The translations under genes and the position numbers were made by a program. DNA of 21,248 bases from Syntrophomonadaceae bacterium (GTDB lineage: Bacteria > Bacillota_D > Dethiobacteria > DTU022). The stretch spans positions 1-21,248 of the forward strand of contig PWUG01000282.1 in assembly GCA_003562605.1 (NCBI GenBank), given 5' to 3'. The notes below the pieces were generated by a model. The model searched no databases, had not been told where the DNA came from, and saw only the letters and a program-made list of their open reading frames with translations. Below, piece after piece: positions 3,681-13,930 of this stretch; positions within the stretch are counted from its first letter, which is position 1; the number at the start of each line of letters is the position of its first letter.

Positions 3681-4460
3681 TCACCGCCCTTTCCACTTTG
3701 GCTCCCTTTTCTCCATAAAAGCGGCAATGCCTTCCTGAAAATCTTCAGTCTGCAAAAGAAACCCGAGAGCTTCCTGCTCCAGTTTTAAACCCGACTGCAA
3801 ATCAACATCTATGCCGTTGTTAATAACTTCCTTGATTTTTTTCAATCCAAGCGGGGGCTTGCCGGCCAGTTTACCCGCAAACTCAGAGACAATCCTATCC
3901 AAACTTTCCTTGTTGGAAACTTCATCGACAAGGCCGATTTCTTTCGCTTCAATTCCGTTTACAGTTTCACCACTGAGAATCATTCTCTTGGCCAGGGGGA
4001 CCCCGACTCGGCGAGGCAGACGCTGGGTTCCGCCCCACCCGGGCAACAAACCGCGGCTTATTTCCGGCAGGCCGAGCTCGGAATTATCTGAGGCAAAAAT
4101 AAAATCGCAAGCCAGGGCTATTTCGCAGCCTCCCCCAAGCGCAAAACCATTTACCATAGCAATTACAGGCTTCTCGTAAGCGGCAAGCATTTCTACAACC
4201 GGTTCCACCGGAGCGGTTTCCGAAAGATCCCAACCGGCAGAGAAGCAGTGCTTGATCTCCTGCTGACCGTCCTTTTCCCTGATCCTGGGATTACCTGTAA
4301 TAACCAGGACTCTGATCTCGTCATCGGAGGCAATCTCTTCCAGGGCTTCTTTCATCTCTATGCCAAGGGTGCTGTTGATTGCATTCAAACGCTGGGGCCG
4401 GTTAAAAGTTATCCGCGCCACATTATCATTCTTTTCGACAATAATTGTCTGATAAGCCAT
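3681..4460 (-). CDS. Enoyl-CoA hydratase/isomerase (crotonase) family protein
   Basis: Crotonase-fold enzyme of 259 residues, likely hydrating a 2-enoyl-CoA or doing a related acyl-CoA reaction in the cytoplasm. The oxyanion-hole regions are FSAGWDLSE (73-81) and NGFALGGGCE (104-113). Both acidic residues of classical hydratases are present: Glu113 in GGGCE and Glu133 in LPEI, followed by GLLPGWGGTQRLPRRVG. A longer frame starts at 4517, but the ATG at 4460 is chosen because AGAGGTG lies 6-7 bases upstream and the protein then begins as the family does. Before FSAGWDLSE there is an insertion of roughly ten polar residues (about 57-71) not found in ordinary hydratases. It follows korAB and two small genes in the same direction. 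The exact substrate cannot be told; a role in fatty, aromatic or amino-acid-derived acyl-CoA degradation is equally possible. Confidence 0.88.
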   Translation of the reverse strand: MAYQTIIVEKNDNVARITFNRPQRLNAINSTLGIEMKEALEEIASDDEIRVLVITGNPRIREKDGQQEIKHCFSAGWDLSETAPVEPVVEMLAAYEKPVIAMVNGFALGGGCEIALACDFIFASDNSELGLPEISRGLLPGWGGTQRLPRRVGVPLAKRMILSGETVNGIEAKEIGLVDEVSNKESLDRIVSEFAGKLAGKPPLGLKKIKEVINNGIDVDLQSGLKLEQEALGFLLQTEDFQEGIAAFMEKREPKWKGR

Positions 4461-4531
4461 TTCAGACACCTCTTTTCTCTTTAATCCCGGACAATACGTT
4501 ATTTCAACATATATCAATATATTCCTGCCGG

Positions 4532-4720
4532 TTACTTGCCTCTCAATACAGGTTCGATTCTGCTTTTAAGCGGTTCAGGTACGTTTTTAAACATGAAATG
4601 GTCGACTTTTCGAACGACTGAGCTGCTGACTTTAACCATCAGGGCCAGCTCCTGTGCGGTCAAGCCCTGATTTTTACGCAGTTCTTTGACTGTTTTACTG
4701 CCAAAGGTTCTAAAAAACAT
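4532..4720 (-). CDS. Small helix-turn-helix protein
   Basis: A 62-residue protein that is mostly one XRE-like helix-turn-helix: VKELRKNQGLTAQELALMVKVSSSVVRKVD (about 11-40), with the typical hydrophobic spacing of an LxxRxxxGLTxxELA pattern. It lacks a sensor or dimerisation domain. The start is well supported by GGAGGG five to six bases before the ATG. It lies 14 bases after the small membrane-protein frame and 71 bases before the hydratase, all in one direction after korAB. It may regulate this operon, or the fold may serve protein contacts. No target site is proven. Confidence 0.75.
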   Translation of the reverse strand: MFFRTFGSKTVKELRKNQGLTAQELALMVKVSSSVVRKVDHFMFKNVPEPLKSRIEPVLRGK

Positions 4721-4734
4721 AGTAACCCTCCACT

Positions 4735-4860
4735 TTAAATATGCGTATTATAAAGAAATAGAAAACCAATCGCCATGAAGTAGGCTACAATACCAAGAGC
4801 AAGCAGTGACAGCCCTTTCTCGAACAGATCTATTTTTCGCTGCCGCTCCAGGCAGTCCAT
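4735..4860 (-). CDS. Small single-span membrane protein, probably the 3' part of a frame-broken gene
   Basis: The 41-residue frame from the ATG at 4860 reads MDCLERQRKIDLFEKGLSLL and then a strongly hydrophobic segment (about 17-37), ending before the helix-turn-helix gene. This ATG has only a weak ribosome binding site. A good one (AAAGGTGA) instead precedes an ATG at 4895, just after korB, but that frame stops after 21 codons. Upstream of 4860 the membrane frame stays open and reads NFEKVPLC before MDC, giving a CMDC pair that looks like a metal- or thiol-type motif. One extra A in the four-A run at 4883-4886 would join both parts into a 53-residue protein starting MDNKNFEKVPLCMDC. I read this as one small korAB-linked gene with a one-base deletion or a sequencing error. 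I do not recognise the family. Confidence 0.55.
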   Translation of the reverse strand: MDCLERQRKIDLFEKGLSLLALGIVAYFMAIGFLFLYNTHI

Positions 4861-4910
4861 GCATAATGGAACTTTCTCAAAATTTTGTTATCCATAAGTT
4901 AAAATCACCT

Positions 4911-5762
4911 TTATAAAAATTCATCCTGAACATGAGCAAATTCCTTTGGGTCAAAGGTCTTAAAGGCCAGGGGATCACCTTTTAAAACAGCAAGGGATGA
5001 TTCGAAAGTCGGGCGGGGCCGGTTGTAAAAGACGCCCAGGGGTATTTTGTCACCCCACTGGCGGGAAAGTTCGATCGCGCTTGTCCAATCCTGCGGATCC
5101 TCAATTTCCGGGAAATAGACCCGCTCATTATACCAACCATAGGTGTTGATCTTGTTAAAGCTTACGCAGGGCTGTAAAATATCAACCAGGGCGTAACCGG
5201 GGAAATTAATTGCCGCTTTCATCGTCTCTTTCAGGTGATCTTTTTCTGCGCTGTAACAACGGGCTACAAATCCCGCTCCCAGTACCAGGGCCAGAGCAAG
5301 GGGGTTAAGGGCCGGCAGAACTACCCCGCTCACCTGCACACCTGTCTTCATCCCCGGATCGCTGGTTGGGCTGGCCTGTCCTTTTGTTAAACCGTAGATC
5401 TGGTTGTTATGGACAAAATGAGCAAGATCGGGATTGCGACGGACATTGTGTATGAAATGATTACCACCTTCGCCGTAACTGTCGCCATCGCCCGATTCGA
5501 CTATTATTTTTAAATTTTTATTTGCTGCCCGGGCACCCAGGGCAGGTGGAAGAGCACGCCCGTGAAGACCGTTGAAACCGTTGGCCTTAATATAGTGAGG
5601 TATCTTCGCCGCTTGCCCGATACCGGAGCAAATCAACACTTCATGGGGAAACAGTTCAAGTTCAGCCAAAGCTCCGGCCAGCGCACTGCGTATACCAAAA
5701 TTTCCGCACCCCGGACACCAGGCAGTCTCTCCGATCAGATAAGCTTTAAGATCAGGCATCAT
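4911..5762 (-). CDS. korB: 2-oxoacid:ferredoxin oxidoreductase, beta subunit
   Basis: Thiamine-diphosphate-binding subunit that, with KorA, oxidatively decarboxylates a 2-oxoacid plus CoA to acyl-CoA, passing electrons to ferredoxin. The 283 residues show CPGCGNFG (16-23), the TPP/Mg motif GDGD (91-94) with the following GGNH (99-102, Asn101), and TKGQASPTS (126-134), all characteristic of this family. The ATG at 5762 (or 5759) is preferred over a TTG at 5768 because AAAGGAGG lies just upstream. The start overlaps the end of korA by about ten bases, indicating translational coupling. The family includes 2-oxoglutarate enzymes; other 2-oxoacids (branched-chain, pyruvate-like) cannot be excluded. 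No separate ferredoxin subunit is encoded next to it. Confidence 0.92.
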   Translation of the reverse strand: MMPDLKAYLIGETAWCPGCGNFGIRSALAGALAELELFPHEVLICSGIGQAAKIPHYIKANGFNGLHGRALPPALGARAANKNLKIIVESGDGDSYGEGGNHFIHNVRRNPDLAHFVHNNQIYGLTKGQASPTSDPGMKTGVQVSGVVLPALNPLALALVLGAGFVARCYSAEKDHLKETMKAAINFPGYALVDILQPCVSFNKINTYGWYNERVYFPEIEDPQDWTSAIELSRQWGDKIPLGVFYNRPRPTFESSLAVLKGDPLAFKTFDPKEFAHVQDEFL

Positions 5763-7452
5763 TCTCAACCTCCTTTACAATTTCATGGGCCATAAAAGGC
5801 CGCCCGTCATATTTGAGTATTGAACCTCCAACCGAAAGCCCTGTTTCACGACAGATGAGAGAGGCCAATTGTCCGGTAGCATTATTTTCAACACAATAAC
5901 TTCTTCTAACCCCGGGAAGTAAATTTTTCAACCTTTTCTGAGGTAAAGGCCAGATATCACTGAAGTGAAGCATAGCTGTTTTCGTTCCCGAGGACGAAAG
6001 TGCGTCTACCGCTTCGCGTAGAACACCATAAGTAGAGCCCCAGCCGACCAGGAGAAGCTCCGGGTGAGGATCGCCGTATAAATCCGGTTCATCCATCTCT
6101 TCTGCCAGGGCTTTAAGTTTACGCATCCGTTTATCTACCATCAGGCGTCTTGTCTCGGCATCTTCAATAATATTACCGTTTTCATCATGCTCATCACTAT
6201 CCACCAAAACTACCTCATCCTTAAACTGTCCCGGAATAATCCGTGGAGAGATGCCATTATCAGTCAGGCGGTAGCGTTTGTAGGGTTTCTCAAAATCGCC
6301 TTCTTCGGCAATAGCGCGGTTATAACCGAGCCGTCCAAAATCGAATGGCTCGATTGAACGGTGAGTATCGGCAAAATTTTGGTCCGACAAAAACATAACC
6401 GGCGTCTGGTAACGATCGGCGAGTTCAAATGCTTTGTTAAGCCTGTAGAAAGCATCTTCATGCGAAGTTGCGCTGAGAACTGCCCGAGGGAATTCACCGT
6501 GCCCGGCATGAATGACAAACCCCAGGTCACCCTGTTCAGTTCGCGTGGGCAATCCTGTAGCCGGGCCCGGGCGCATGCCGACAATAAGGACCAGGGGTGT
6601 TTCAGTCATCCCGGCAAGCGAAAGCCCTTCCACCATCAGGGAGAATCCGCCTCCTGAAGTTGCAGTAAGGGCTCTAACTCCGGCGTACGAGGCGCCCAGC
6701 GCCATATTTATAGCTGCGATTTCATCTTCGGCCTGCTCAACAACCAGCGGATAATCGATGCCTTTTTCAGCCAGGTAATTCATAACTCCGGTAGAAGGAG
6801 TCATCGGGTAAGCTGAGTAAAACCGGCAGCCGCTGGCCAGCGCAGCCATACCCAATACCTGGTTTCCATCGATGAAAAGTTTTTTTTCGTCTTCATTTGG
6901 GGGGGGCAGATCAAAGCAGGCGTTGCAAGAATCGGCAGCTGAATCCATACCTGCCCTCAGGGCATTAATATTTTTTTCTGCTACCCCTTCTTTATCAGCA
7001 AAAGTTTCTTTTAGCAATACTTCCACGGCCTCACTCTGCAGACCGATCAAGACCAGCAGTGCGCCGACAGCCACAGTGTTGGCCATGACCTTTCCGCCTG
7101 CTTCTTCAGCAAGCTTCTGCAGTTGGACAGGTACTCCCCTGTCCTCATCATCAGGCAGGGAAAATAACTGTGGGTCGAAAATTACCCGGCCCGAAGAAGC
7201 CAGATTGCCGCAGTGTTGGTTGTAAGTTTCTTCATTCAGGGCCACCATTATGTCGATCGATTCGATATTGGTCCAGGGTTTACCCGCGGCTATACGCAGC
7301 CTGGAAAAGTTATGGCCGCCCCGGACACGGGACATGTAATCCTTGGTATAGATCAACCCGTAACCTTTTCTGACCAGGGCTTTACCAAGCAAGTTCATTA
7401 CTGTATCCATACCCTGACCGGCTGCACCTCCGACAAGGATATTCACTTCCAT
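5752..7452 (-). CDS. korA: 2-oxoacid:ferredoxin oxidoreductase, fused gamma-alpha subunit
   Basis: Partner of KorB, 566 residues. The N-terminal gamma domain (about 1-180) opens with the nucleotide/CoA-type loop GGAAGQGMDT and carries SRVRGGHN (41-48). The alpha domain begins near 193 and contains YPMTPSTG (215-222), VVEQAEDEIAAI (237-248), TSGGGFSLM (265-273) and the RPGPATGLPTRTEQGD stretch (294-309). The C-terminal domain runs to the end. This gamma-alpha fusion is the standard layout of the KorA group. The start lies 41 bases after the thioredoxin-CcdA gene, so the two may share a transcript. The AAAGGAG site is about 13 bases from the ATG, rather long, but the upstream frame is closed by a TGA so no earlier start exists. 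Confidence 0.93.
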   Translation of the reverse strand: MEVNILVGGAAGQGMDTVMNLLGKALVRKGYGLIYTKDYMSRVRGGHNFSRLRIAAGKPWTNIESIDIMVALNEETYNQHCGNLASSGRVIFDPQLFSLPDDEDRGVPVQLQKLAEEAGGKVMANTVAVGALLVLIGLQSEAVEVLLKETFADKEGVAEKNINALRAGMDSAADSCNACFDLPPPNEDEKKLFIDGNQVLGMAALASGCRFYSAYPMTPSTGVMNYLAEKGIDYPLVVEQAEDEIAAINMALGASYAGVRALTATSGGGFSLMVEGLSLAGMTETPLVLIVGMRPGPATGLPTRTEQGDLGFVIHAGHGEFPRAVLSATSHEDAFYRLNKAFELADRYQTPVMFLSDQNFADTHRSIEPFDFGRLGYNRAIAEEGDFEKPYKRYRLTDNGISPRIIPGQFKDEVVLVDSDEHDENGNIIEDAETRRLMVDKRMRKLKALAEEMDEPDLYGDPHPELLLVGWGSTYGVLREAVDALSSSGTKTAMLHFSDIWPLPQKRLKNLLPGVRRSYCVENNATGQLASLICRETGLSVGGSILKYDGRPFMAHEIVKEVENDA

Positions 7453-7493
7453 TAGAGATGTTCAACTCCTTTGCATCTTTTATCAGTTTACTG

Positions 7494-8711
7494 CTACCGC
7501 CAGTTAATCCAGGCCAACAGAATTAACCCGAAGAGCACCAGGATAAAACCGCTGGCGTAGCTGAGGTAATGGGTATACTTATTTATCTTCGGTACGCTTT
7601 TGGCTATGCCGGTGAAAGTCCCCGCTACAAGCAGGGGAACCCCATGACCGATCCCGTAGATAAAAAGCAACCCGCTGCCATAAAACGGCTCGGCCTGAAC
7701 TGCTGCATAAGTAATAATCACAGCAAGAACCGGTGTGGCACATGGTGACGCGACCAAACCAAAAAGCATACCCATAACAAGCGAGCCGGCCAGGCCAGCC
7801 TTCTTTAACGGAATTCTATTTAAGCCGGGCAGGTTAAAAGTCAGCACGCCAAGCAGCTGCAGACCCATAATAATGGCCACGGCAGCGAGGATATAATACC
7901 AGACGGCATCAACCTGGCCGAATATCCTGCCAAAATAAGCGGCGACAAAACCTAAAACTGCAAAAGTAACCGCAAGTCCGATTACAAATGACGAAGAGAG
8001 CATAAATCCCCGCGAACGAGGCCCTTCAGCGTACCCACCTATATAACTTACCAGGAGAGGGACCATTGACAGTATACAGGGGCTGATACTGGTGACAAAA
8101 CCCCCGATGAAAACAAGGGCCAGGGTGAGTAAAGACCTCTGCTCAACAACCCGTGGAATGGTTTCCGAAAAAAAAGATTCCAATCGTGAAAAACTTATTT
8201 CTGCATCTTTATCTGTTTCCCCGATAATCGGGTCAATGCGTTGAACCATTTCCTCAAAACTGAAAGCCCCGGCTTCTTCGGCTGTTAATACCCCTTTTCC
8301 ATCAATAAAAAAAAATGCCGGTATATATAAAACTATAAACTCTTCCAGAAGTTTTTCAGTTTTCGGATTCTCCAGGTCAGCAATAATAAAGACAACTTCG
8401 TCGGAATAATATTCTTTTAGAGCCATAATCACGGGCTCCATCAATACGCAGGCGCTTCACCAGCGGGCATAGAATTCAAGAACGATCGGTTTTTCATTCT
8501 GCCGGGCTTCTAAGAAGGCTGCATAAGGATCACCTGTAGGCTTGAATTCAGCATCTGCCGCTTCTTCCGCATCCACTTTCCCGCCTCTACCTGCAATATC
8601 AATCTGATCTTTTTCGGCTGTAGAAAAAAGAGTCTGGTTAGTAACAATCAGGACAGAAATCACCGCAATAGTGACAATTGCCAGGACAGTTAGTTTATAT
8701 TTTTTGGCCAC
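7494..8711 (-). CDS. Thioredoxin-CcdA fusion with probable selenocysteine (in-frame TGA)
   Basis: The frame runs from GTG 8711 (GGAGG seven bases upstream) to the stop at 7494, 405 residues, interrupted only by TGA at 8457-8459 (codon 85). Upstream are a signal anchor (about 7-25) and the first strand of a thioredoxin fold ending EFYARW. Downstream, in the same frame, come SAC, then MEPVI, and the cis-proline motif YIPAFFF (Pro131). TGA therefore replaces the first Cys of W-C-x-x-C, giving W84-U85-S-A-C88. A SECIS-like hairpin follows. The C-terminal half is a CcdA/DsbD-type membrane domain of about six spans with its two key cysteines, Cys212 (SISPC) and Cys324 (VASPC). Likely role: moving reducing equivalents across the membrane to an outward-facing thioredoxin domain. 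A TGC/TGT-to-TGA mutation or sequencing error is the alternative. Confidence 0.82.
8418..8440 (-). promoter_or_regulatory. Candidate bacterial SECIS element
   Basis: In the minus-strand RNA, UGGAGCC (8434-8440) pairs with GGCUCUA (8418-8424), seven pairs including one G-U, around the 9-base loop CGUGAUUAU. The loop starts 24 bases after the UGA codon and has G at its second position followed by U. Bacterial SECIS models ask for an apical loop about 16-37 bases after UGA with G among its first two bases, so this fits. It lies inside coding sequence, as bacterial SECIS elements do. SelB binding is inferred. Confidence 0.65.
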
Positions 8712-8758
8712 AATGCTGCCTCCGATTATATAAATTGTTCCCTTTTTTCTTACACTTT

Positions 8759-8788
8759 ATCATAACATAAAGAGCATATCATTGCTAA
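8759..8788 (-). promoter_or_regulatory. Candidate sigma-A promoter for the thioredoxin-CcdA gene
   Basis: On the minus strand TTAGCA (8783-8788) and TATGAT (8759-8764) are separated by 18 bases, about 50 bases before the GTG start. It lies after the terminator of the CBS-domain gene, so a new transcript is expected to begin here. Consensus matching only. Confidence 0.4.
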
Positions 8789-8871
8789 AATAATGGAGTG
8801 ATCGTTTGCTTAGAAAATGATGGCCGGTGTGGAGGGGATAATTTTTATCAGGGCAGCAGCCAATCCGAGTA

Positions 8872-8905
8872 TAAAAGCAGAATTATAGCTATTTGACGAT
8901 TCTGC
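8872..8905 (-). terminator. Terminator after the CBS-domain gene
   Basis: On the minus strand GCAGAAT (8899-8905) pairs with ATTCTGC (8877-8883) across a 15-base loop and is followed by TTTTAT. It starts two bases after the CBS gene's stop codon. The stem is only moderately stable. Confidence 0.6.
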
Positions 8906-8907
8906 AC

Positions 8908-9366
8908 TTAATTATCTTTCCTGTACAGGCAGCTCATGATATCGCGGCGGGAAACTATACCGACCAACTTATCGTTGTCGTCGACAACCGGGAGCCGATT
9001 AATACTATTTTCCACCATCAGCGTGGCCGCTTTTTCCACCGACTCTTCCGGTTTAACGGAGATTACATTTTTACTCATCAACTGGCCCGCTTCCAGTGAC
9101 ATCGCCCTCTGGAGTTCTTCAACAAACTTTTTTGGACTGCCCAGGTAGATCAACCCACCAAGTATTTCCAGGTATCCTGGGGTCTTTATCCGGGAAGCTC
9201 TTCTGATTAAATCACCCTCGGTTACCATCCCTGCGACTTTACCGCTTTCATCTAAAACGGGCAGGCCGCTAATGTTGTTTTCCTGAAGCAGCTTGGCGCA
9301 TTGTTCTACGGAATCGCTGGTCGAAACAGTTATGACATCTGTGGTCATAATTTCTTTTATTCGCAT
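8908..9366 (-). CDS. Tandem CBS-domain protein
   Basis: A 152-residue protein made of two CBS domains (about 1-56 and 95-150), each with the typical opening (IMTTDVITV; LMSKNVISV) and the closing G-hydrophobic-VT/S-xxD pattern (GMVTEGDLIR; GIVSRRDIMS). Such pairs form a Bateman module that binds adenine nucleotides, SAM or similar ligands. There is no attached enzyme or transporter domain. The linker (about 60-90) is longer than usual. The start has GGGAGGG about nine bases upstream. It follows the alpha/beta hydrolase by only 14 bases. The ligand and the regulated partner cannot be told from sequence. Confidence 0.88.
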   Translation of the reverse strand: MRIKEIMTTDVITVSTSDSVEQCAKLLQENNISGLPVLDESGKVAGMVTEGDLIRRASRIKTPGYLEILGGLIYLGSPKKFVEELQRAMSLEAGQLMSKNVISVKPEESVEKAATLMVENSINRLPVVDDNDKLVGIVSRRDIMSCLYRKDN

Positions 9367-9380
9367 CTTATAATCCCTCC

Positions 9381-10151
9381 CTAGCTTATAACAAAGCTGT
9401 TTATTGCATCCATGTATTTCCCCGAATCGACAAACATGATATCGTTATGGTCAGCTCCCGGAATTACTATAAAATCCTTTTGTTTCGATCCCAGGCTTTC
9501 GAATAAATCCCTGCCCTGGGTTAAAGGAACAAGGCGATCATGCTGACCATGTATCACCAGGGCCGGCAGGCTAATCTCGCCCGTCAGACGGCGATACTCT
9601 TTTTCCAGCGGCGTCAGATCACCGGGCGACGGGAGGCCAAGATGGTGGATTAAACCGGCCACGCTGATAAAGCCACTCTCGATAATCAGGCCTTTGAGCC
9701 GATCCGGATAATGCACAGCAAGCTCCAGGGCAGAGATGCTGCCCAGCGAACGGCCCATGACAAACCAGTCGTTCTCAAAACCATCTTCGGAAAAATTTTC
9801 GAAGACGTATTCAAAAATCACCCTTGCATCTTCGACCATACCCTGAAAACTCGGATTCCCCTGGCTGGCTCCATAGCCGCGGTAATCGGCAACCAGCAGG
9901 TTTATACCTCTTTCATTATACATGGGTGCAATTCCGTTATAGTCGCTGACAACCTCGCCATTGCCGTGAAAATATAAAAGCCAGGGTTTTTTTACATCAC
10001 CCCGGAAGGCACGGCAGACAATCGAAATACCTTCATCAACCGGGACTTCCAGATCAAAAGCGCCGTCAGGCGGTTTGCTGTGCTGCCGACGTGGATAGAA
10101 GAGGTACATCAATAGCGAAGAGCTATCTATCTTGGCATAGAGGTCAGGCAT
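9381..10151 (-). CDS. Alpha/beta hydrolase
   Basis: A 256-residue serine hydrolase of the alpha/beta fold. The oxyanion motif HGNGE is at 62-66, the nucleophile elbow GRSLGS at 133-138 (Ser135), and the likely acid Asp205 is in HGQHDRLVP. The base His235 is in GADHND, giving a complete triad in the right order. No signal peptide is seen, so it should be cytoplasmic. The layout resembles the BEM46/YfhR-like group of small hydrolases, whose substrates are mostly unknown. AGGGTGG precedes the ATG. It lies about 110 bases after the cyclodeaminase gene and may be only loosely linked to that cluster. Confidence 0.85.
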   Translation of the reverse strand: MPDLYAKIDSSSLLMYLFYPRRQHSKPPDGAFDLEVPVDEGISIVCRAFRGDVKKPWLLYFHGNGEVVSDYNGIAPMYNERGINLLVADYRGYGASQGNPSFQGMVEDARVIFEYVFENFSEDGFENDWFVMGRSLGSISALELAVHYPDRLKGLIIESGFISVAGLIHHLGLPSPGDLTPLEKEYRRLTGEISLPALVIHGQHDRLVPLTQGRDLFESLGSKQKDFIVIPGADHNDIMFVDSGKYMDAINSFVIS

Positions 10152-10262
10152 TGGACCACCCTTTCAGGGGAAAAATGTGCTCCACCAATTATTAAACTAA
10201 ATTCTATCTGCCTCTGAAGATTGAAATAAATTTATTATTCCCTTGCATTTGTTGGTATAACA

Positions 10263-10886
10263 CTAGATTTTCTTTTCGATCAGGCTGCAGTTTTTATCAA
10301 ACAGGTCCCGTCCCTGTTTTAAGATTTCATCTGTTTCGAGTTTAAATTTTTCCAGCACATTTTTATCAGAAATCATGCCCAGATTTATCCTGACATTGTA
10401 ACAGGCCCCGGTAAGTCCTGCCATAGCCTGCAAGTTGGCTACCCCGAGGTCGGTAATAGCCGCGGGGTTACCCTTTGAAGCAACTTCGTTCACGATTGAT
10501 AAAACACGCAAGCTACCACGAGCAGTCTGCATGGGAACGTTAGCAGCATTTAACGCAGCGGCCTGAATAGCCATTACCCTTTCAGCTTTTTCTTCCGTGC
10601 TTTCCTTGGGTAAACGGTAGGCTTCCATGACCTGGTTAAAGGCAACCGTATCTTCATCAATTGCTTCCGCCAGCTTGTTCATCAAAAAACGGGCTTCTTC
10701 GCCGGAATGTTGGAGTATATCAACTATTTCACCAAGTTTTTCCCGATTCTGGCTGAGATTGCAATACATCGAAAGCAGCCCTGCGCCCTGAGCTCCGGCC
10801 AGGGCAGCAACACTACCTCCCCCCGGGGCCGGGGAAGAAGAAGCAACCTCACGAATAAATTCTTCTATTGATAACTCTTTAAGCAT
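10263..10886 (-). CDS. fchA: Methenyl-/formimino-tetrahydrofolate cyclohydrolase/cyclodeaminase
   Basis: A 207-residue all-helical protein of the cyclodeaminase family, which opens the 5,10-methenyl ring of tetrahydrofolate or releases ammonia from formimino-tetrahydrofolate. Recognisable features are the N-terminal SSSPAPGGGSVAALAGA block (about 16-32), the IDEDTVAFNQVM segment with its conserved acidic residues (about 76-87), and the C-terminal A-x-x-N-V-x-x-N-L pattern. The length suits the single-domain enzyme, as opposed to the longer formiminotransferase fusion. AAAGGAG precedes the ATG. It follows the two MttB-like genes by about 60 bases, so it may process the C1 unit they release. 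The choice between cyclohydrolase (FchA) and cyclodeaminase cannot be made from sequence. Confidence 0.85.
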   Translation of the reverse strand: MLKELSIEEFIREVASSSPAPGGGSVAALAGAQGAGLLSMYCNLSQNREKLGEIVDILQHSGEEARFLMNKLAEAIDEDTVAFNQVMEAYRLPKESTEEKAERVMAIQAAALNAANVPMQTARGSLRVLSIVNEVASKGNPAAITDLGVANLQAMAGLTGACYNVRINLGMISDKNVLEKFKLETDEILKQGRDLFDKNCSLIEKKI

Positions 10887-10946
10887 TTTAAATAACTCCT
10901 TTTGTTCCTCGTTAAGTTTTCTATTATTATAACAATGATTCTTAAA

Positions 10947-12401
10947 TCAAGCCAGTTCCTTATGGGCATCAATACCAGAAGCGATATCTTTAATTGCCTT
11001 TTCAACTTCGGGAGCCAGCGAAGGCACTTCATGCCACTTCATGATCTCCTTGATTAAAGCATTGGCACTTTCTCCGAAATCTTTGCTTCCGGCTGCCTTC
11101 CAGTTATCATAAGTGTTACGATTGAAAGTCTTTGTAAAATGCATTTCGCTGCGGAAATGGTCCAGCGTATGCTGCTCAGTTATAAAATGCCCACCCGGGC
11201 CGACTTTTTCGATTACATCCAGGGCAAGGGTATCGGGATTGACATCAACCCCCCGGATCATATATTTAACCGCACCGGCTCCTTCATTGCATAAAACCAG
11301 ATATTCGAGACTGCAGGTCATACCGGCACCAATATAACCAAGATCATGAATTAAATTTCCTCCGGCCAACCCTGCCATAAGCAAACTAAAACCAGCTTCC
11401 ATAGCTGCCTGCTGATCAAAACTCTGAGCGTCAGTACAACCGGCTAAAGTAAAATTAGGCAAATTATAATAATCGGCTAACTGAACCAATGATATCCAGC
11501 CTAATACACTTTGAGGGTCACCGTAAGAACAAACGGTCGTAATCATATTAAGTGATGGTGTGCCCCCGCCATATATAAAAGGCGCCCCTTTTGCTTTAAG
11601 CTGGTGGACAACCAACCCTGAAAGGACCTCGGCATTTGCTAAAGCCAGCGCACCGGCAGTCGTAATAGGCCCGGTTGCCCCGCACATTACAGCAGCAGCA
11701 TAAACTAGAGGAATTCTTTCTTCGGCAGCAGTGAGCAGTTTTTGTAATGACCCCGCGGAATGGACAAGTGGTGAGCTGGGCTGTGAAAAATGGATAATAT
11801 ATGGCTTTTCAACAAGTTTTTTTCTGTTTCCGGCAACTAGAGCAGCCATTTCTATAATATCCAGCAGCCCCTGTCGATCATGGGCATCAAAAATAATCGG
11901 CTTTGTACTGTTTAAAGTCATAGCCGCAAAGTGGTGACGGTCCGATCTCTTGTCCGGTACATCCGAGGCCCGGGCCATGGACATAATATAATCGATGTTC
12001 TCAAGAGCATCGGTTATAGTGGAGGCATTAATTGTATCCTGTAAAACAGCCCGCCGCCTCTGGCCGGTATCGATATCAATTATATAAGGTGTATCGGACC
12101 CTGGGCCGAAATAAACTCTGCCTTTCTCCAGGTTCATTGCGCGGTCCCCGTCCCGGTTGTAAATAGCAATTTTACAGGGGGCAGTTTGCAGAGCCTGTTG
12201 AACCATCCAGACAGGTATCTTTACTAAATCTCCGGTTATACGTGCACCGGCCTCGCGTAAAAGTTCAATTGCTTCGGGTTCACATATTTTCACACCAACC
12301 TGTTCAAGAATGTCCAGGGTGGCCAGGTGCAGTTGACCCACTTGATCTGTAGTTAAATTGAGCAATCCCATTCTTTTTTGGAAAAACCTTTTATTAATCA
12401 T
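10947..12401 (-). CDS. MttB-family methyltransferase (non-pyrrolysine), copy 1
   Basis: A 484-residue member of the trimethylamine methyltransferase (MttB) superfamily. Known non-pyrrolysine members demethylate quaternary amines such as glycine betaine, carnitine or proline betaine and pass the methyl group to a corrinoid protein. Here there is no in-frame UAG, so it lacks pyrrolysine. Family-type segments include the HLATLDILEQVGVKI opening, KIPVWMVQQAL, the glycine-rich GATGPITTAGALALANAE stretch, APFIYGGG and GGNLIHDLGYIG. The start at 12401 is chosen over one 51 bases upstream because GGGAGG lies eight bases before it and the protein then aligns with its neighbour. It is 71 bases downstream of copy 2 and closely related to it. 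No corrinoid protein or methyl-THF transferase is encoded nearby. The substrate is unknown. Confidence 0.88.
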   Translation of the reverse strand: MINKRFFQKRMGLLNLTTDQVGQLHLATLDILEQVGVKICEPEAIELLREAGARITGDLVKIPVWMVQQALQTAPCKIAIYNRDGDRAMNLEKGRVYFGPGSDTPYIIDIDTGQRRRAVLQDTINASTITDALENIDYIMSMARASDVPDKRSDRHHFAAMTLNSTKPIIFDAHDRQGLLDIIEMAALVAGNRKKLVEKPYIIHFSQPSSPLVHSAGSLQKLLTAAEERIPLVYAAAVMCGATGPITTAGALALANAEVLSGLVVHQLKAKGAPFIYGGGTPSLNMITTVCSYGDPQSVLGWISLVQLADYYNLPNFTLAGCTDAQSFDQQAAMEAGFSLLMAGLAGGNLIHDLGYIGAGMTCSLEYLVLCNEGAGAVKYMIRGVDVNPDTLALDVIEKVGPGGHFITEQHTLDHFRSEMHFTKTFNRNTYDNWKAAGSKDFGESANALIKEIMKWHEVPSLAPEVEKAIKDIASGIDAHKELA

Positions 12402-12472
12402 AGTTATTGCCTCCCAAACTATTATGATCCCACCCAGGTATGCTCTTCCCATGAATTTAGCAATAAGTTTTG

Positions 12473-13930
12473 TTACTTCTGTCCGGCCGCTTCCTGATCT
12501 CGCTTTATAACAATTTTTCTTATCTCTTTTTCGACTTCAAGGGGCAAAACTGCGGAATATTGGTTCCCGAGAACTGCTTTTATATGCTCGTTTGCTGCCT
12601 CCCCAAAGGTTTTGCCACCTTCGGTTTTCCAGGCATCGTAGTTTTTACGGTTCAGGATTTGCGGGAAATATAGCTCTTTTCGAAAATGGCTCATAGTATG
12701 CTCTTCAGCCAGATAGTGACCGCCGGGTCCGACTTTTTCAATCAGATCCAGAGCCAGATATTCTTCATCAACTTCGATCCCACGCAGCAGGTTTTTTACT
12801 GCACCGACGGCTTCATTGCAGAGAAGTAGGTGCTCCAGGCAAGAGGTCATCCCCACACCCATGTATCCGAGGTTGTGGATCAGGTTGCCGCCGGCCATAC
12901 CGGCAACGACAAGGTTAAAGCCTGCTTCCATCCCGGCCTGCTGGTCAAATGTATGGGCATCGGTGCATCCGGCGGTGGTAAATGAAGGCAGCCTGTAATA
13001 CTGGGATAGTTTAACCAGGGCAATACAGCCGCGGTCACGCTCCGGCCCCCCGTAAGAACAGATCGAAGTACCCATGTGCATCGGGGGAATACCACCTCCG
13101 TGTATAAAGGGCGCCCCCCTGGCTTTAAGCTGATGGATCACCAGGCCGGAAAGGATTTCGGCATTAGCTACAACCACCGCCCCGCCTGCAGTGACAGGGC
13201 CGGTAGCGCCAAGCATTGGCGTTGTGGCATAAACAAGAGGAATTCTTTCTTCAGCACAGGTCAGCAGTTTCTCGAGAGCCTCACGTGAGTGAACCAACGG
13301 TGAGGTTGGTTCAGCATAAAGAGCTATGCCTGGCTTGTCTCTTAATCTTTCTCTTCCTCCGGCGGCCAGTGCGGCCATCGCGATTATTGCTTCCAGGTTG
13401 CGGCGGTTGTAACAGGTAAATAAAACCGGCTTAGTTGTATTCATAAGCATAGCTTCGAACTGGTAAAGATCCGAGGTATCAACCGGCACATCCGATATAA
13501 GACCGAGAGACATAACAAAATCAATGTTATCGAGGACATCAATCAATCGTGAGGAGTTGCAGACGTCAGTTCTTATGACCTTCCGGCGCTGACCGCTCTC
13601 GAGATCGATCGTGAAAGGCACTTCTGAACCGGAGCCATAATAGATCCGCCCTTTTTCCAGGGTCATCGCTACCGAGCCATCGCGTGCCGCTAACGATACA
13701 ACTTTTGGCGCCGATTGCAGGGCGTCCTGGACCATCCAGGCCGGTATTTTAACCAGGTTCCCATCAACCTTCGCCCCGCTGCCATGTAAAAGATCCAGCG
13801 ATTCCGGTTCGAATATTTTTACCCCGACCCGCTCGAGGACATGAAGTGTAGCATAGTGAAGGCGTTCAACTTGATCGACAGTCATTATGTTAAGACCAAT
13901 CGTGCTCTGGGCAAGCTTGTTTACATGCAT
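12473..13930 (-). CDS. MttB-family methyltransferase (non-pyrrolysine), copy 2
   Basis: A 485-residue paralog of the preceding protein and the first of the pair to be transcribed. It shares the same blocks in the same order: RLHYATLHVLERVGVKI, KIPAWMVQDAL, GATGPVTAGGA, ANAEILSGLVIHQLKA, APFIHGGG, AGCTDAHTFDQQAGMEAG and GGNLIHNLGYMG. It has no in-frame UAG. AAAAGGAG precedes the ATG by about eight bases. It lies 114 bases after the iron-sulfur subunit of the molybdenum hydroxylase; I see no convincing promoter or terminator in that gap. The two copies have diverged enough to suggest different substrates or a hetero-oligomer, but this is inference. Confidence 0.88.
   Translation of the reverse strand: MHVNKLAQSTIGLNIMTVDQVERLHYATLHVLERVGVKIFEPESLDLLHGSGAKVDGNLVKIPAWMVQDALQSAPKVVSLAARDGSVAMTLEKGRIYYGSGSEVPFTIDLESGQRRKVIRTDVCNSSRLIDVLDNIDFVMSLGLISDVPVDTSDLYQFEAMLMNTTKPVLFTCYNRRNLEAIIAMAALAAGGRERLRDKPGIALYAEPTSPLVHSREALEKLLTCAEERIPLVYATTPMLGATGPVTAGGAVVVANAEILSGLVIHQLKARGAPFIHGGGIPPMHMGTSICSYGGPERDRGCIALVKLSQYYRLPSFTTAGCTDAHTFDQQAGMEAGFNLVVAGMAGGNLIHNLGYMGVGMTSCLEHLLLCNEAVGAVKNLLRGIEVDEEYLALDLIEKVGPGGHYLAEEHTMSHFRKELYFPQILNRKNYDAWKTEGGKTFGEAANEHIKAVLGNQYSAVLPLEVEKEIRKIVIKRDQEAAGQK

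Follow-up and report, generated by a model that had tools for sequence, protein, structure and literature searches.

Does the TGA that interrupts a thioredoxin active site on this contig end translation, or is it read as selenocysteine (Sec)? The window, by which we mean the whole stretch of 21,248 nucleotides that was analysed, holds two minus-strand frames, 8711-8460 and 8456-7494, which lie in the same phase and are separated by a single TGA at 8459-8457, as the initial annotation had described. The TGA falls on the first redox position of the thioredoxin motif (EFYARW-U-SACVLMEPVI), and reading through it gives one product of 405 residues, in which a thioredoxin domain is followed by a CcdA-type membrane domain (Trx-CcdA). 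We put the probability that this TGA is decoded as Sec within the Trx-CcdA protein at about 0.93. The same reading had been proposed when the locus was first inspected, and it is now supported by the codons that homologues carry at this column, by the conservation of a downstream hairpin and by constraint on synonymous codons.

7494..8711, minus strand: putative Trx-CcdA selenoprotein gene, 405 codons and a TAG stop, with a GTG start assigned by position; relatives match residues 1-405
8719..8723, minus strand: GGAGG, a candidate ribosome-binding-site-like motif judged from the sequence, 7 bases before the GTG
8640..8708, minus strand: predicted N-terminal hydrophobic helix, residues 2-24, a probable membrane anchor
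8457..8459, minus strand: TGA codon, residue 85, probably read as Sec on the evidence of the homologue codon column and the alignments
8448..8450, minus strand: Cys88, the resolving cysteine of the UxxC motif, invariant in the alignments

Codons and selenocysteine machinery in relatives

A protein search, which scored the 7999 candidates with the most words in common, returned 393 matches, of which the best 120 were listed. All 120 of the matches listed begin after the TGA and cover at most 78% of the query. Several of the 120 relatives listed, P0002-P0121, are recorded as 'cytochrome c biogenesis protein CcdA', and two of the 120, of 229 residues each, consist of CcdA alone. Because all 120 listed relatives start after the TGA, gene callers have truncated them at about one place. 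The absence of the pre-TGA part from these 120 records exposes a systematic annotation error, which a Sec-aware profile would correct.

We scanned species genomes with patterns taken from the CcdA part and, from the 114 encoding stretches obtained, retained 80 loci. The column at residue 85 lies outside 15 of the 80; the 65 loci that cover it carry TGA (n = 48) or TGC/TGT (n = 17) and no other codon, the pattern that the initial annotation had proposed to look for. The TGA form is present in isolates (Desulfosporosinus hippei DSM 8344, D. lacus DSM 15449, D. nitroreducens and D. metallidurans) and in metagenome-assembled genomes (MAGs) of Thermincola and many titled Syntrophomonadaceae. The 17 Cys forms are distributed over Chloroflexota (7), Nitrospirota (6), Zixibacteria (1), Armatimonadota (1) and Bacillota (2, L041 and L042). 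Nine stretches of viral contigs fit a pattern, and none of them encodes a relative.

All 33 full-length rows have U or C at residue 85 and retain C88, C212 and C324 (alignments A2 and A3 are selections of loci). By the Nei-Gojobori method, dN is lower than dS both upstream and downstream of the TGA in seven of eight pairs that include the window gene, with dS near saturation; the eighth pair, with L012, has just 4 upstream codons. In the 12 close pairs listed, too, dN is the smaller of the two on either side of this codon.

The genomes of these relatives were searched for Sec machinery. In the 48 TGA genomes, selB scores over its cut-off in 43 and selA in 42, compared with 2 and 1 of the 14 control genomes, respectively, and tRNA-Sec reaches at least 60 bits in 40. 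We set the 60-bit line ourselves because the Rfam tRNA-Sec cut-off was passed in 5 of the 14 controls and is thus not specific. At least one of selA, selB and a strong tRNA-Sec match is present in 46 of the 48; for the remaining two genomes, G020 and G029, the matches are fragments, one of selB (170.7 bits) and others of selA (218.6 and 196.2 bits). The three components are not each found in every TGA genome, and many of these genomes are MAGs that are perhaps incomplete. Among the genomes with the Cys form, selB scores over its cut-off in 10 of 17, so that Sec users may also keep the Cys form.

A SECIS-like hairpin downstream of the TGA

The bases that follow the TGA fold into a hairpin with a 7-bp stem (8440-8434 paired with 8424-8418) and a 9-base loop, the stem beginning 17 bases and the loop 24 bases after the TGA, as first annotated. 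The placement agrees with the bacterial SECIS rule quoted at that time, which calls for a loop 16-37 bases after the UGA with an early G.

8418..8440, minus strand: SECIS-like hairpin within the coding sequence, proposed from folding, conservation and synonymous constraint; loop CGUGAUUAU at 8425-8433, with GU at 8431-8432

By folding energy alone the hairpin is moderately unusual, which is too weak as proof: the 29-base piece has a folding energy of -9.0 kcal/mol (z = -2.9, 1 of 200 shuffles equally good), the 56-base piece has a z of -2.06 (10 of 200 shuffles equally good), and the 45-base pieces of several relatives fold first into other structures. Comparison across the 49 TGA genes (the 48 loci and the window gene) is more informative. 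GU occupies loop positions 2-3 in 49/49 of them, and also in L179-L184. All five core pairs are formed in 46 of the 49 TGA genes versus none of the 17 Cys genes, in part because the amino acids differ there. When synonymous codons were randomised within genes, the five core pairs appeared in a mean of 4.6 genes and a maximum of 11 over 1000 rounds, a test that, like the synonymous-constraint ranking, carries no correction for shared ancestry. In that ranking, scored against the codon usage of the same genes, Glu92, Val94 and Ala97 take ranks 1-3 of 154 columns, Val94 sitting in the loop, and Pro93 ranks eighth. The codons themselves hardly vary: Glu is GAG in 48/48 (one gene has Gly), Val is GTG in 49/49 and Ala is GCT in 46/49, while the adjoining codon has G as its third base in 49/49, whether it specifies Met, Leu, Thr, Ser or Gln.

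In an alignment of the stem, standard pairs fill 98.6% of pair cells versus 20-53% when the partner strand is slid (48 rows, 47 distinct, added members included); this alignment, A4, omits 7 of the 49 TGA genes, every one of them a duplicate of a kept row over that stretch, and is without L179-L181, whose stem is incomplete. Unpaired cells number 4 of 282, single cells turn to G-U, and there is one two-sided change, from A-U to G-C in L184. Covariation as judged by shuffling the paired letters is not significant (82 of 500 shuffles as high), because the stem barely varies. Taken together, the loop GU, the core pairs, the synonymous constraint and the TGA/Cys column argue from sequence comparison that the hairpin is more than chance. 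Three loci speak against the hairpin as a universal element: L179, L180 and L181 have the loop GU, but of the five core pairs they form 4, 3 and 3, respectively, and the fold obtained for the first two is a different one (z = -0.53 and -1.63). The conserved hairpins make up a natural set of near-identical SECIS-like elements with few variants.

If the TGA were a true stop, the locus would encode a short anchored peptide and a separate CcdA protein restarting at MEPV or MALK. A TTG start is present at 8444, and the recorded starts of the 120 listed relatives, all of them after the TGA, also agree with such an arrangement. A stop here, however, would disrupt the active site of the thioredoxin domain in 48 loci, the residues ahead of the TGA are conserved with dN below dS, and the column is always Cys where it is not TGA; moreover, the genes that are actually split break about 80 residues later, between the domains. 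Termination at this codon is thus very improbable.

Still less probable is that the codon specifies another residue, by a Trp or Gly code or by read-through with a near-cognate tRNA. The frame would be continuous under any code in which TGA is sense, but TGA terminates 7 of the 16 window genes checked, so that it is not a sense codon in general, and Cys is its sole replacement in the 17/17 covering loci without TGA. Both observations bear out the initial annotation, which had taken TGA to be an ordinary stop in other genes here and a Trp reading to be unlikely, and the SECIS-like hairpin and the occurrence of selA, selB and tRNA-Sec in relatives tell against any such reading as well. We give least weight to a pseudogene or a one-base sequencing error. 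The family does have a decayed remnant in one genome (G088, L159), but the identical TGA recurs in 48 loci from genomes of different species, isolates included, and dN remains below dS on both sides of it. The reading that we adopt for what follows is Sec.

Domain architecture and distribution

The second half of the protein, which the initial annotation had left unnamed, is a CcdA/DsbD domain, and it is this half that makes the protein unusual. The thioredoxin model PF00085 matches residues 70-159 with 46.9 bits (gathering cut-off 23.5, Cys written for Sec). Membership of the CcdA/DsbD family is indicated by PF02683, with 103.8 bits over a cut-off of 27.1, together with both conserved cysteines. 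These align with two cysteines of the CcdA structure 5vkv, one in SPC and one in TPC, which we take to be the redox pair of CcdA.

8223..8522, minus strand: thioredoxin domain, about residues 64-163 (PF00085 and a thioredoxin-like model)
7512..8129, minus strand: CcdA/DsbD transmembrane domain, residues 195-400 (PF02683 and the match to 5vkv)
8076..8078, minus strand: CcdA cysteine 1, Cys212, in an SPC motif, invariant and aligned to the SPC cysteine of 5vkv
7740..7742, minus strand: CcdA cysteine 2, Cys324, in an SPC motif, invariant and aligned to the TPC cysteine of 5vkv

An AlphaFold model of moderate confidence (mean pLDDT 79, pTM 0.63) has the thioredoxin order of strands and helices and places residue 85 just ahead of a helix at 86-102. 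A fold search of the PDB with this model returned mostly thioredoxins, and CcdA was absent from its best 50 rows. The first two rows of that search are receptor entries with a poor alignment fit, which we discarded as meaningless.

CcdA continues in frame from the thioredoxin in 37 of the 49 TGA genes. In the other 12 the thioredoxin ORF ends 78-87 codons past the TGA and CcdA comes next, as a separate ORF in 11 and by a translated match in L031. The pairing of the two domains is partly a product of selection, because the 80 loci were found through CcdA patterns. In one split locus, L133, inspection by eye reveals a sequence resembling the start of CcdA in frame a few codons past the thioredoxin stop, beyond a further TGA, which could plausibly be a stage on the way to fusion.

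In a tree of the thioredoxin domain one branch separates the 53 Sec rows from the 17 Cys rows (96/89), with just 124 columns for the 70 rows, a midpoint root and long branches that meet. Fused genes form two separated groups in this tree. The sequences are consistent with several fusions or with one fusion and several fissions, and both histories fit. A further type of Sec-Trx-CcdA gene, the third, carries GATUPTC as its motif and has an incomplete hairpin; L179 (G428) and L180 (G367) are its fused representatives, and L181 (G400) is split.

A stand-alone Sec thioredoxin paralogue, with a frame of 196-235 residues, occurs alongside the fused gene in 8 genomes: L155-L158 (in G001, G003, G018 and G013, respectively) and copies in G004, G005, G011 and G012. 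The stretches around L155-L158 contain no CcdA-family ORF, and all five core pairs of the hairpin are formed in 4/4 of these paralogues. The remnant L159 (G088), at about 3780-4020, keeps the TGA active site and adjoins gene families shared with several Desulfosporosinus loci.

We searched for the spread of the family with the thioredoxin alignment, the position of the TGA being verified for some of the matches. Of the 82 genomes in the class of D. hippei, 16 gave a TGA-holding match, that of G088 being the mere remnant. The corresponding counts are 28 of 97 for the class of L001, 2 of 113 for the class of G046 once G266 was removed, 9 of 10 for the class of G043 and 34 of 398 for a sample spread evenly over the phylum. 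The weak TGA match removed from this count, G266 (L145), is an ordinary Cys thioredoxin with a TGA that precedes its start. L100 and L101, the best matches without TGA in the search of the D. hippei class, do not match the motif pattern used. Four Bacillota genomes of the phylum sample (G049, G050, G362 and G546) gave thioredoxin-like matches of over 100 bits without any stop, which indicates that Cys-like forms also exist in Bacillota.

Relation to known selenoproteins and possible role

The initial annotation had called this a probable new selenoprotein. What stands of that claim is the fused Trx-CcdA architecture, which is absent from the 119 families in Table 1 of a 2026 review (PMC13188914) and for which no NCBIfam 20 model reaches its cut-off with the proteins tried. 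What does not stand is the novelty of Sec in a thioredoxin. The same table includes thioredoxin UxxC, thiol:disulfide interchange protein UxxC and TsoB, and the available portion of PMC1794560 reports that Carboxydothermus has a Sec thioredoxin and that three deltaproteobacteria have a Sec thiol:disulfide interchange protein. The literature searched yielded no Trx-CcdA selenoprotein in the portions of text available, and a term search of the main text of PMC12013277 and PMC5029168 returned no match. As Sec thioredoxins were known already, the novelty, relative to the sources covered, lies in the fused membrane form.

The domain order of DsbD is alpha-membrane-gamma, and we take cd02953 to be the DsbD gamma-domain group. 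DsbD (NF001419) and CcdA (5vkv) have the transmembrane family and the cysteine pair in common with the Trx-CcdA protein. The latter scores 131.2 bits on the DsbD model, under the cut-off of 330, and differs from DsbD in its N-terminal thioredoxin, in that no alpha domain was found and in having Sec for Cys, whereas CcdA alone differs from it in having no thioredoxin domain. TsoB is a protein that Haft and Tolstoy reportedly described in 2025 as a rhodanese/DsbD fusion-like selenoprotein. Like the protein studied here, TsoB (NF045694) contains Sec and combines a membrane part of DsbD type with a thioredoxin-like region. Its profile matches both parts of the Trx-CcdA protein, scoring 138.8 bits here and 143 bits for the D. 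hippei homologue, under the cut-off of 805. In the TsoB profile the membrane part (178-391) comes before the thioredoxin (about 464-551), the reverse of the Trx-CcdA order, and the DsbD matches likewise place the thioredoxin after the membrane part. TsoB is listed with UxxxxU and two Sec (PMC13188914).

The thioredoxin part has counterparts of its own. Thioredoxin selenoproteins (PF00085, UxxC) likewise have Sec for the first Cys of UxxC and are listed in PMC13188914 by the thioredoxin domain alone, whereas here it is joined to CcdA and to an N-terminal hydrophobic helix; the split and stand-alone Sec thioredoxins may already be covered by that entry. Another group with Sec in a UxxC thioredoxin domain is the thiol:disulfide interchange protein (PF13098 in PMC13188914), listed among selenoproteins as 'Trx-like 2 (Thiol disulfide interchange protein), cd02953' in the available part of PMC2398784. 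As a member of what we take to be the DsbD gamma-domain group, Trx-like 2 is possibly the closest kin of the thioredoxin part; the available portions of the two articles mention no transmembrane domain for it.

We propose that the protein would act as a compact, self-contained DsbD-like electron exporter. The N-terminus of the translation is lysine-rich and probably stays inside the cell, which would place the thioredoxin domain outside, tethered by the N-terminal anchor at the outer membrane face. Sec, inserted at the UGA by SelB and tRNA-Sec by way of the hairpin 17 bases downstream, would take the attacking position of U-S-A-C. The CcdA domain would draw electrons from cytoplasmic thioredoxin through Cys212/Cys324 and pass them to the Se-S bond between U85 and C88, and the thioredoxin domain would then reduce disulfides or oxidised thiols outside the cell. 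We infer this topology and electron path by analogy with the CcdA/DsbD mechanism, in which electrons move from cytoplasmic thioredoxin to a transmembrane cysteine pair and on to an outer thioredoxin-type domain. As in selenoenzymes generally, having Sec as the attacking residue should make exchange faster and protect against irreversible oxidation.

On the same analogy, export of reducing power is the general role that we moderately favour. Sec could instead serve a dedicated pathway, such as cytochrome c maturation, metal or selenium handling, or peroxide removal, an alternative that we consider somewhat improbable and that competes with the proposed role alone, leaving the Sec reading untouched. 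Cytochrome c biogenesis gives the CcdA family its name; of the four stand-alone paralogue loci, L157 lies close to a P-type ATPase and L155 to a pyridine-nucleotide disulfide oxidoreductase; and MacB-like permeases and FtrD-like proteins occur near several Desulfosporosinus copies, all of which would suit a dedicated pathway. Against it, the neighbours vary by clade, so there is no constant partner, and Pfam searches on the neighbours of the compared loci revealed none that is shared across clades and would point to a substrate.

We suggest, tentatively, a broader picture. The Trx-CcdA protein would represent an unlisted architecture of Sec thioredoxin and transmembrane donor, widespread in anaerobic Bacillota and fused more than once (in the Syntrophomonadaceae, Desulfosporosinus and GATUPTC clades), and would be the main exporter of reducing power, so that extracytoplasmic thiol balance would depend on selenium. 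If this is true, Sec would sit directly on a transmembrane thiol relay and tie selenium supply to extracellular redox control in anaerobes, among them named isolates such as D. hippei and D. lacus.

The gene order around the locus (3681-13930 of the window) is MttB-like (two genes), FchA-like, hydrolase, CBS, Trx-CcdA, KorA, KorB and enoyl-CoA hydratase-like, and it is largely kept in related MAGs. An MFS transporter lies ahead of Trx-CcdA in 13 compared loci and is missing from the window.

4911..7452, minus strand: 2-oxoacid:ferredoxin oxidoreductase genes of KorA/KorB type, downstream of the selenoprotein and outside it, frequent neighbours in the clade

The FchA-like protein scores 182 bits against a cut-off of 275. 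The first MttB-like ORF (10947-12452, 501 residues) scores 413.7 bits against a cut-off of 525, and the second (12473-13930, 485 residues) is alike by clustering. Neither contains an in-frame TAG break, so that both are apparently non-pyrrolysine members of their family.
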